Assembly (NCBI GenBank): GCA_022600195.1
Contig: JAHZKX010000032.1
Span: 62,001 to 126,000, forward strand
DNA: 64,000 nt
Reading direction: 5' to 3'
From: Planctomycetota bacterium
Lineage (GTDB): Bacteria; Planctomycetota; Planctomycetia; Planctomycetales; Planctomycetaceae
The position numbers and the translations under genes were made by a program. Below are positions 40,879-46,627 of this stretch, in pieces (the first letter of the stretch is position 1; every line of letters begins with the position of its first letter). The notes under the pieces are model-generated. The model had not been told where the DNA came from. It made no database searches and saw only the letters and a program-made list of their open reading frames with translations.

Positions 40879-41799
40879 ATGGCGACTCCAACAATTCAAC
40901 CAGGAACAACGAAAATCGGCTGGATTGGAACGGGAGTCATGGGTGCCAGCATGGTGGGTCACCTGATGGATGCTGGATTTTCTGCAACCGTTTATAATCG
41001 CAGTCAATCGAAAGCAGAAACACTGCTAAAAAAAGGGGCCAGTTGGGCCGATTCTCCCAAAGCAGTCGCCGAAAAATCTGACGTCATTTTCTCAATCGTT
41101 GGATTTCCCGCTGATGTACGAGAAGTTCTTTTGGGAGAGCAGGGGGCTTTGGCCGGCGCCTCAGCAGACAAAATTCTGGTAGATATGACAACCAGCGATC
41201 CTTCACTGGCAGTTGAGATTGCAGAGGCTGCTGCAACAAAAGGCGTGCACAGTATTGATGCCCCCGTTTCTGGTGGAGATGTGGGCGCAAAAAATGGAAC
41301 ATTGTCCATCATGATTGGTGGAGATGAACAGGTTGTTGATGCACTGAAACCCTGCTGGAACGCCATGGGCAAGACAATTGTGTATCAGGGTGGCCCCGGT
41401 TCCGGTCAACACACGAAAATGGTGAATCAAATTCTGATTGCAACCAATATGATCGGAGTCTGTGAAGCCTTGCTCTATGGCTATAAAGCAGGGTTGGATC
41501 TGCCAACGGTATTGGAATCGGTGGGGAGTGGGGCGGCTGGCAGCTGGTCACTCTCAAATCTTGGCCCTAGAATTATGGATAACAACTTCGATCCCGGTTT
41601 TTTCGTCGAGCATTTTATTAAAGATATGGGAATTGCGTTAGCAGAAGCGAAAGCGATGAATTTGAGTCTGCCCGGTCTGGCGCTGGGGCATCAACTTTAT
41701 CTTGCGGTTCAAGCTCAAGGACATGGCCGAGATGGAACACATGCATTGCAATTAGCACTGGCATCATTATCCAATGTCGATTGGGAAAGTCGTACTTAG
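40879..41799 (+). CDS. NAD(P)-dependent beta-hydroxyacid dehydrogenase
   Basis: [55 protein letters not shown]. Confidence 0.93.
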
Positions 41800-41893: not shown

Positions 41894-42781
41894 ATGGCAA
41901 ATCAAAATGACCTGTTTGCAGGTCTTTCTGTGGCAATGATCACGCCCTTCAAAAATGGGGAAATCGACGAAACCGCGCTGCGTGGCCTTGTCGATTATCA
42001 CATCGAGCAAGGGACTGATACTTTGTGTCCTGTGGGAACAACAGGTGAATCACCAACACTCTCCCACGAAGAGCATAAACAGGTCATTTCCATTGTTTGT
42101 AACCAGGCTGCAGGCCGCATCAAGGTGATGGCGGGGACAGGTTCAAACAGTACAAAGGAGGCAATAGAGCTCACCAAATTTGCACAAGATGCCGGTGCCG
42201 ATGGTGGACTGCATGTGGCTCCTTATTATAACAAACCGACACAGGAAGGATTCTTTCAGCATTACCAGGCAATTGCCGAAGCTGTCGAGATCCCCATTGT
42301 GATCTATAATATTCCCGCACGCACTGCCAAAAATATTGAGCCGGAAACCATCATCCGTCTGGCTGAAATCCCCAATATAGTGGCCGTGAAGGAATCGACA
42401 GGTTCAATGGATCAGGCATCGCATATTCTTTCTGCGTGCGATTTGACGGTACTTTCTGGCGATGACAGCCTGACGCTGCCTCTCATGGCGTTGGGAGGAA
42501 AGGGAGTCGTCTCAGTTGTCGGAAATATTGTTCCCGGTGATGTTAAAAATATGCTAAATGCCTTTAATGCAGGTGATTTGAAATTAGCCCGAGAATGGCA
42601 CTATAAATTGTTTGGGCTCTGCAGGAACCTTCTGGGACTGGCAACCAACCCCATTCCGATCAAAGCAGCAATGCAGTTGCTCGGACGTGATAATGGTGAA
42701 GTTCGACTTCCGATGACGCAGCTCGATAACGCATCCATGACAGTTCTGGAGAAGACATTGCAGGATTATGGCCTGCTTTAA
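41894..42781 (+). CDS. dapA: 4-hydroxy-tetrahydrodipicolinate synthase
   Basis: [50 protein letters not shown]. Confidence 0.95.
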
Positions 42782-42866
42782 AAAACATTGAAGCGGCTAC
42801 TGACAATAGAGATAAAACAGAGAGATTATCAGGCACATACTTAACCCTTTTTAAGAGGTATCTCTT

Positions 42867-44171
42867 GTGATATTTGGTTTTGGAAAATCTCGTGAAGAAG
42901 AGGAAGAAGAGGAAGAAGAGATTGAACCGGTCTCTTTTCAAGGCGCACTCAATGGTCAGCCAGCAAATCTGAAAGAAAACGCCCGGCTGGTAAAAGCCGG
43001 TTTGATGCCTGCCAAGAACATTATTACCGATGGTCTGGCAATCCGAGCAGAATTTATGCGTTTTGAACCCAAAGGGGAACGGTACCAGGTTGTCTTTTAT
43101 GTTGACGGTGTTGCAAATCCTGGTCCCCGTTTATCGAAACAGCAGGGGATGGCTGTTGTTCAGATCATCAAGCTTTTATCGGGACTGAATATTCAGGAAC
43201 GAAAACGCCCTCAATCCGGCGGTGTCTTTGCTGAACTGGAAGAAGTTTCCTATCAGCTCAGGGTTTCCACAAGCCCGGCAGAGGGGGGGGAACGCCTCTC
43301 TATCAAAGCGATTAATGTCAAAGAACCACTGGACCGCGCTGATGACATTGGGATCACAGAGGAGAACAAAGAAAAAATTCGAGAGTTGAGCAAAGGGCGT
43401 AACGGATTGATCCTTGTCAGCGGTGCGCCAAACTCTGGTACAACAACAACTACTTTTGGAGTTGTACGTTCAGTCGACGCTTATCAATACACTATTTTCT
43501 CAATTGCTGATCCAGAGCACCGTGATTTTAGTCACATAGCAACACTCGAGAGAAAAGAAGGAGATACGTTTGACGATGAGTTGCGACGAATTATTCGCAT
43601 GGAAGCTGATATCATTTATTTGTATCCCATCAAAGATGAAGAGTATGTCAAGAGTGTACTGAATGTCAAAGATGACATTTCTATGATCGCAGAAATTGCC
43701 GCCAAGGATTCGGTAGCAGGATTGATTAAATTCTGTAAATTAGCCGGTGGAGTGGAAGCAGGCGTCAATGCGCTCCGCTGTGTGATTGGGCACAAATTGA
43801 TTCGTACACTCTGCGATGAATGTAAGGAAGCCTTCCGCCCGAATCCCAAAATGATTGAAAAAATGGGTCTGCCCAAATCCACTAAAATGCTCTATCGCCC
43901 TCCCCGCCAAACCGTGGATGAGGAAGGAAACGAAATCGAACCTTGCGAGAAGTGTGATGGCCTGGGTTACTATGGCAGGACCTTGATGTTGGAGATCATC
44001 GAAATGACTGATGAAATGAAGCAATTGATCATCGGCGGGGCAGAACCGGGGAAAATCAGGGCATTCGCCAAAAAACAGGGTATGCCAACCTTTCAGAAAG
44101 ATGGCATTCGTTTAGTCGCGGAAGGGAAAGTCTCGCTGGATGAGTTACAAAGGGTGTTCAAATCTTCCTGA
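42867..44171 (+). CDS. GspE/PilB-family protein with degenerate ATPase motifs
   Basis: GTG start; GLILVSGAPNSGTTTTTFG aligns with GspE Walker A; CDEC...CEKC Zn motif; C-terminal GspE-like tail. Confidence 0.85.
   Translation: MIFGFGKSREEEEEEEEEIEPVSFQGALNGQPANLKENARLVKAGLMPAKNIITDGLAIRAEFMRFEPKGERYQVVFYVDGVANPGPRLSKQQGMAVVQIIKLLSGLNIQERKRPQSGGVFAELEEVSYQLRVSTSPAEGGERLSIKAINVKEPLDRADDIGITEENKEKIRELSKGRNGLILVSGAPNSGTTTTTFGVVRSVDAYQYTIFSIADPEHRDFSHIATLERKEGDTFDDELRRIIRMEADIIYLYPIKDEEYVKSVLNVKDDISMIAEIAAKDSVAGLIKFCKLAGGVEAGVNALRCVIGHKLIRTLCDECKEAFRPNPKMIEKMGLPKSTKMLYRPPRQTVDEEGNEIEPCEKCDGLGYYGRTLMLEIIEMTDEMKQLIIGGAEPGKIRAFAKKQGMPTFQKDGIRLVAEGKVSLDELQRVFKSS
42894..42920 (+). repeat. Tandem repeat (GAAGAAGAG)x3 encoding Glu9
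   Basis: Three exact 9-bp copies at the 5' end of the GspE-like gene. Confidence 0.95.
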
Positions 44172-44896: not shown

Positions 44897-46627
44897 CTAA
44901 AGCGATTTCGACATCTTCTCAGCCAAACGAGTCAAAGCTGGACTAACGTCTGTTGGTTCGAGGTGCACGTTAATCACACTCAAGCTGTCTTTATTCGCCA
45001 ATGCTGCTTTGATGGCTTTTTCGAGGTCTCCTTCCGTGCTCACTTCAAAGCCCCATCCACCACCAATGAGATCAGTGATATTATGATATTTCCAATCGGG
45101 AATATCATTAAACGGCCCTTCCTGCAGGAAACGTTCCGTTGTGTAGCCTTTATTATTCAAGACGATCACAATTGGGTTATATCCCAGCTTAAGCGCGGTA
45201 GAAAGCTCGAGGCATGTCATTTGAAAGGCCCCATCACCCACCAGGACAATTGGTCGTAAACTTTGATTGGCGACCTGGGCCCCAATAGAAGCCGGTATTG
45301 CAAAGCCCATTGAGGTATAATAAGCCGGGCTGAGGAATTTGGTATGTGTGCTGATCATCAAATCGACGGCACCAAACAGGCAGTCTCCTACATCGGTTAC
45401 CACAACGGTCTGATCAGTAAGAATCTGGTTGATGCTTTCAAACAGGTGCTTTGTTGTCACGGGTTCTGCTGGATTCACTTCATAGTTGACAGGCTGTGGA
45501 CGAACATCATCCGGTATTTTACGAATGGTTACCTTCATTTTTTGTTTTTCCAGCGCTGTGACAAAATCAGAAAATACAACATCATGAAAATGATGATAGC
45601 TGATCCGCAGTTTTTCACTGGTAGCATAAATACATTTGCCAGGATCGAGATGGGCTGTATATATCCCCAAATTAATATCTGTCATGAATGTACCTAGAAG
45701 AATGACACAGTCACTTTCTTCCACATAACGCTGGACTTCGTTTCGACCCATCGCTCCTTCATACACGCCCAGATAAAGTGGATGAGATTCACTCACGACT
45801 GATTTGCCTAAGATCGTCGCACACATGGGTATCTTGTGCTTTTCAGCAAACTTCAGAACCTCTTCTCTTAATCCAAACCGATGGATTTCCACGCCAGCAA
45901 TAATTACAGGTTTTTTACTTGCCTGAATCAATTCGGCAGCTTCATCAAGCGATTCCCGTAAGGCATTTTTATTGCTTGCTGGCTGACTATCATCGGGTAT
46001 ATGTGGAATGATTGCTTTAGTGTGAACACAATCGCGGGGCAGTTCCAGATAAACCGGACGCTTATATTGGACGCAGGCTTCCAGACACCGATCAATTTCC
46101 TGAAAAGCCGTTATTGGATCATCCAGCAATGCGGTCGCCACTGTGATTTTTTCAAAGACATCACGTTGCGTTTGAAAGTCTTTCACGCGATGGTGGAGCA
46201 GGGGGTCAGTTTCCCTCTCGGTCATCCCTGGGGCACCACTGATTACGACGACAGGTGATTTTTCTGCATAGGCTCCAGCGATGGAATTGCACAAACTCAG
46301 ACCGCCAACACAATATGTGACACAGACAGCACCGATTCCATTGACCCGTGCATAGCCATCTGCTGCGTAGCCGGCATTATCCTCACGTGTTGTCCCTATG
46401 ATTCGAATAGGACTTTCTTCGAGCATGCCATAAAATTGCAATACGAAATCGCCAGGAATTCCGAACATATCACTGATGCCATAATCCTGTAATCGCTGAA
46501 TCAAATAGCTTCCGATAGTGTGTACTTTGCCGTTATTCTTGCCGGAAACATTCGTGGATGTTTGCTTTGTGGCAGAACGTTTTTTAACACCTTCTGATTT
46601 TGATTTGGAAATTGTTTTTCGCGCCAT
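44897..46627 (-). CDS. TPP-dependent alpha-keto acid decarboxylase (pyruvate/indolepyruvate decarboxylase-like)
   Basis: [84 protein letters not shown]. Confidence 0.9.

Follow-up and report, generated by a model that had tools for sequence, protein, structure and literature searches.

A gene in the 64,000-nucleotide stretch of planctomycete DNA analysed here (the window) encodes a 434-aa protein that is a member of the PilB/GspE superfamily by descent and fold. To judge by its sequence it would be a pseudo-ATPase and hardly a motor, because Walker A and the Asp-box Glu, on which ATP binding depends, are gone and the Arg fingers are eroded. Nearly all sampled relatives of the bacterium have the same fixed catalytic loss, and this is therefore a preserved, in all likelihood non-motor protein and not a decaying gene. 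That the core and Zn module persist suggests that its contacts have been retained. We refer to the protein and its orthologues as the short family.

The open reading frame has a GTG start and encodes 434 aa plus a stop, without internal stops (Table 1). Residues 50-429 match the Pfam T2SSE profile (PF00437) at 156.6 bits (cut-off 24.9, E 9e-46) over profile positions 13-370 of 370, which places the protein by descent in the T2SSE or PilB/GspE superfamily. The closest protein in the PDB is Thermus PilF/PilB (phmmer, E 3e-41), and the catalytic motif positions of the two align one to one. An AlphaFold2 model built with 30 orthologues (pLDDT 83.2, pTM 0.75) gave 5oiu as the top Foldseek match (E 7e-31, TM 0.63-0.69), with PilF, PilB and GspE at the top of the list, as expected of a PilB/GspE fold. 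These results bear out the GspE/PilB-family identity proposed in the original prediction. The N2 domain, the RecA-like C-terminal domain (CTD), the Cys4 Zn module and the fold are held in common with the PilB/GspE/PilF ATPases (PF00437, TIGR02533, TIGR02538), and the tetra-cysteine motif assigns the protein to the PilB/GspE subfamily and not to PilT. Unlike those ATPases it has no N1 domain, and it scores under every GspE/PilB equivalog cut-off in NCBIfam. For GspE (TIGR02533) the score is 174.7 vs 630.25 bits, and no gsp or pil neighbours were recognised in 20 related loci, so that the protein does not qualify as a GspE equivalog. There is no membrane segment ahead of the core in the short family, whereas a group of membrane-anchored relatives has 1-4. 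In the family-specific N-terminus F24 (1.0) and G26 (0.99) are near-invariant in the orthologue alignment.

Table 1. Features of the pseudo-ATPase gene and its upstream neighbours, in window coordinates
Feature	Position	Strand	Basis or remark
3-Hydroxyisobutyrate-dehydrogenase-like gene, conserved upstream with dapA	40879..41799	+	Name by inspection of sequence
dapA-like gene, 85 bp upstream, same strand	41894..42781	+	Name by inspection of sequence
Purine-rich ribosome-binding-like stretch (aagagg) just 5' of GTG	42851..42866	+	Read directly
Putative pseudo-ATPase gene, short family ('S')	42867..44171	+	ORF, PF00437, PilF/PilB phmmer, AlphaFold/Foldseek
N-terminus specific to short family: M-I/V-FGFGK, acidic run, FQGALNG	42867..42947	+	Alignment
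Degenerate Walker A GAPNSGTTTT	43422..43451	+	Lys position 192 = Thr; G186, G191 invariant
Degenerate Asp box ADPEH	43506..43520	+	Mg-coordinating Glu position 214 = Ala
Degenerate Walker B EADIIYLYPIKD	43602..43637	+	Catalytic Glu position 254 = Pro
Replaced His box AEIAAKDS	43689..43712	+	His position 278 lost, Glu276 new
Zn module, first pair CDEC, C316 and C319	43812..43823	+	102/105 conserved
Zn module, second pair CEKC, C360 and C363	43944..43955	+	101/105 conserved

The motifs quoted in the original prediction, the four degenerate ones and the two cysteine pairs of Table 1, are all present as written. In solved PilB structures Walker A, the Asp-box Glu and two Arg fingers hold ATP between packing units, and ATP turnover powers the motion of the ring (PMC5424180). 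The same paper reports full conservation of the Walker motifs, the catalytic Glu, the Asp-box Glu and the Arg fingers among PilT/PilB-type ATPases (PMC5424180). The 434-aa protein differs from active PilB/GspE ATPases in all four catalytic residues, the Walker A Lys, the Asp-box Glu, the catalytic Glu and the His-box His. Among 105 distinct orthologues the Walker A position has V in 59, T in 24, L in 16, S in 3, I in 2 and A in 1, and never Lys. An orthologue with this Lys, which would have made the loss strain-specific, was looked for and none of the 105 has it; the loss is fixed, and the finding that the original prediction had named as refuting it did not turn up. The remark made there that the Thr codon is one base from AAA is true in the window and has no bearing on the loss, since V, T and L are the usual residues at position 192 in the family. 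The Mg2+-binding Glu of the Asp box is kept in 1/105, the catalytic Glu in 5/105 (Pro in 81/105) and the His-box His in none, and in 100 of the 105 all four residues are absent together. All four are kept in 34/36 proteins of the membrane-anchored group that have the Walker A Lys and in 55/56 other PilB/GspE-type proteins. All these counts depend on a score-based grouping of the proteins.

Other parts of the core have been kept or newly fixed. The P-loop glycines G186 and G191 are present in 105/105 orthologues, T/S193 is kept, and so are D80-G81, Q116, E142, R244 and R313. R241 (103/105) and E276 (104/105) are newly fixed where active relatives have Ser and Thr, respectively, and R65 is found in 79/105 where active relatives have His. 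The Arg fingers, put at positions 132 and 147 through the PilF alignment and the residue spacing of PilB numbering (PMC5424180), not by superposition, are eroded, with R132 in 29/105 and position 147 occupied by R in 64 and K in 22 (R or K in 86/105). These positions are thus partly kept, and a classical hexamer interface is not assured.

A protein search found orthologues in 115/119 genomes of the same family, with the frame open in all 115 copies; in two of the four remaining genomes the gene is split at contig ends. In a class-wide search with the family profile 67/67 own-family genomes score at least 467 bits and 0/180 genomes of other families exceed 332 bits, and a sparser sample of the whole phylum likewise yielded high-scoring copies in the window's own family alone. 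The short family is therefore, within the sample, restricted to that family. Omega is 0.034 and 0.054 in two unsaturated within-genus pairs; in the other within-genus pairs dS is saturated and dN is 0.10-0.13. The short family is under strong purifying selection. The open frame, the family-wide fixation and the omega values agree with the original prediction that this is an intact gene and no decaying pseudogene.

Intact relatives occur in the same genome, which the original prediction had suggested searching for a second, intact GspE/PilB. There are fifteen PF00437 matches, and those read include intact PilB, PilT and GspE-like proteins, the PilB and PilT proteins on contigs C9, C77 and C67. 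A related-loci search in the genome contigs found distant relatives only, with motifs intact. One of the GspE-like proteins, encoded in a 636-aa open frame (G000:C56:131605), carries membrane-like segments at its N-terminus and retains every motif; its gene is followed by one for a CvpA-like membrane protein (PF02674), and the same contig has a pilT-like gene (pilT*) at a distance of about 10 kb. Such membrane-anchored GspE-like ATPases are the closest intact relatives of the short family, being the best non-orthologous matches of its profile and having in common with it D204, unlike canonical PilB. They differ from it in their N-terminal membrane segments and in the catalytic residues counted above.

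In other families an intact anchored GspE is found directly behind an intact pilT*, often with hisF upstream of pilT*. Across Planctomycetia loci (L190-L206, own copy L189) we observed a conserved cassette of hisF, pilT-like, anchored GspE-like and CvpA-like genes, whose GspE member is a pseudo-ATPase in several families, with pilT* still intact. No hisF match was found in the window's own genome, which is likely an assembly gap because pilT* is close to a contig end; in two same-genus genomes hisF adjoins pilT*. In six own-family genomes (L309-L314, L316-L321) each HisF match is split in two near query residues 138-141 while lying within one longer open frame, which suggests an insertion in HisF there.

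The best matches in other Planctomycetia families are mostly anchored GspE-like proteins of 550-800 aa with an APPxGGLTTT-like Walker A (group P). In these long pseudo-ATPases the Walker A Lys and the His-box His are each kept in 0/30 and the Asp-box Glu in 24/30. Group P resembles the short family in the loss of the Walker A Lys and His box and differs from it in usually keeping the Asp-box Glu, in having membrane segments and a pilT* neighbour, and in forming its own clade. Most group P loci examined lie directly behind an intact pilT*, followed in several by a CvpA-like gene. Other variants were seen. A protein of family f97 (L071/L198, genome G402) keeps the Walker A Lys and catalytic Glu and has Gln for the His-box His, and is a possible evolutionary intermediate. 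An otherwise intact anchored GspE of family f94 (L139, genome G437) has the His box TTLQATDA, which looks like another, independent His loss. Pseudo-ATPases of families f2 and f109 (L155, L166, L085), outside the window's own family, have short open frames of 442-479 aa, and may be a second membrane-less version or truncated.

Trees were built after removal of the motif columns. In the careful tree the short family forms one clade (100/100), the long pseudo group another (100/99), and both together with the f97 protein part from the intact proteins (99/98). A quicker tree with more long branches has the same main split (SH-aLRT 100), and the short family is separated from canonical PilB in both trees. 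The joint short-plus-long clade reaches only 69/59 in the careful tree, and in an AU test (p 0.41) a sister relationship between the short family and the intact GspE of the window's family, and with it an origin from that GspE, was not rejected. Because of these two results the losses in the short and long groups may be either one event or two, and long-branch attraction is a live concern.

About half of 20 related loci have, as the window does, the dehydrogenase-like and dapA-like genes ahead of the gene; in the others it lies among unrelated genes, and the dapA-like neighbour is not evidently linked in function. Downstream in the window, on the minus strand, is a convergent gene (44897-46627) whose product resembles an enzyme of the thiamine-pyrophosphate pyruvate/indolepyruvate decarboxylase type. 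No pilus, T2SS or cassette genes were recognised near the gene in the 20 related loci, whose neighbours were judged by clustering and by eye. The pseudo-ATPase of a secretion or pilus system put forward in the original prediction is thus upheld, by sequence, in its first part, while its link to pili or secretion is not. The protein may have a scaffold, regulator or signalling role, as was also proposed there.

Distance co-variation, computed among 17-19 genomes, is the sole pointer to a partner. Short-family distances correlate with those of anchored GspE at r 0.57-0.71 (partial 0.33-0.60 controlling PilB, HisF and/or pilT*), and the co-variation is stronger with anchored GspE than with pilT*. 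We regard this moderate signal as a lead, not proof. Because of it, weighed against the lack of a recognised cassette gene near the gene in the 20 loci, we tentatively suggest that the protein is a nucleotide-free, non-motor partner or regulator, likeliest of a membrane-anchored GspE-like ATPase and pilT* pair, though this may well prove wrong. The fold would be kept for shape and contacts and not for ATP use, and the protein would most likely stay nucleotide-free (apo-like), forming oligomers by way of the N2-CTD surface that it has retained, either by itself or together with a relative. It would act on an anchored GspE-like ATPase, in its own genome the 636-aa copy, which belongs to the presumed ancestral hisF-pilT*-GspE-cvpA cassette. 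R241 and E276, with the mostly conserved R65, may be signs of a pocket or interface that has been rebuilt to be independent of nucleotide. The closest precedent for a nucleotide-free PilB with a function comes from Myxococcus xanthus, in which a PilB mutant in Walker A that is deficient in ATPase activity still signals and the apo form has been proposed as the active signal (PMC5544727). That PilB is likewise a PilB-family protein for which a nucleotide-free form is proposed to signal; it differs in being a working ATPase, the dead form there being a laboratory mutant (PMC5544727).

The protein could instead regulate or scaffold, in trans and without being a motor itself, the canonical motor of a type IV pilus or T2SS-like system, one of the PilB/PilT proteins of contigs C9, C77 or C67. 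Several such paralogues are intact, the Zn module is kept, and the partial correlation with canonical PilB is weaker at 0.28-0.47 depending on controls; controlling HisF, anchored GspE and pilT* it is 0.32 (p 0.065), about as large as the anchored-GspE signal. We nevertheless think this unlikely, given the lack of linkage to recognised pilus genes in the 20 loci, the position of the short family apart from canonical PilB in both trees, and residues such as D204 that are common to the anchored GspE group and not to canonical PilB.

Full exaptation of a PilB/GspE shell to a role that has nothing to do with pili or secretion, such as that of a lone housekeeping or metabolic regulator, would fit the orphan locus with its dapA and dehydrogenase neighbours in about half of the 20 loci, the near-universal presence of the gene in the window's family, and its faster divergence (mean distance 0.91 vs 0.50-0.55 for PilB and anchored GspE). 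Set against these, the whole N2, CTD and Zn architecture is retained and the dapA synteny is not universal, and we consider such a role rather doubtful.

It is also conceivable, if improbable, that an ancient Planctomycetia-wide branch of PilB/GspE proteins became pseudo-ATPases that now serve, without motor activity, as dedicated subunits of an envelope machine not yet described and distinct from both the classical pilus and the T2SS. The branch would include a cytosolic pseudo-ATPase in the window's family and a membrane-anchored one elsewhere; the anchored one is paired with an intact ATPase of the pilT-like kind, and in several genomes its gene is followed by that of a CvpA-like membrane protein.

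Hydrolysis of ATP through unconventional residues would be in keeping with the invariant G186 and G191, the kept T/S193 and the R or K at Arg-finger position 147, but appears highly improbable, varied residues having taken the place of the Lys, the Mg-binding Glu, the catalytic Glu and the His alike. Motif loss by itself could resemble decay, but a decaying pseudogene, like an artefact of sequencing or assembly, is ruled out by the open frames in 115 copies, omega of about 0.03-0.05, the newly fixed residues and the lack of Lys in all 105 orthologues.

We found no description of the short pseudo-ATPase family in the open-access (PMC) literature. A type II secretion-related operon has been discussed among the conserved and essential loci of Planctopirus limnophila (PMC10632474). 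The relatives described here form a large, natural and conserved set without the reportedly fully conserved motifs, within one phylum and alongside working paralogues, and this set offers a natural test of the role that the PilB/GspE shell can have in the absence of ATP. The analysis also brings to light the pilT*/membrane-GspE/CvpA cassette, which deserves its own study. For the window's family, in which the gene is near-universal, an annotation as 'type II secretion ATPase' would be wrong.
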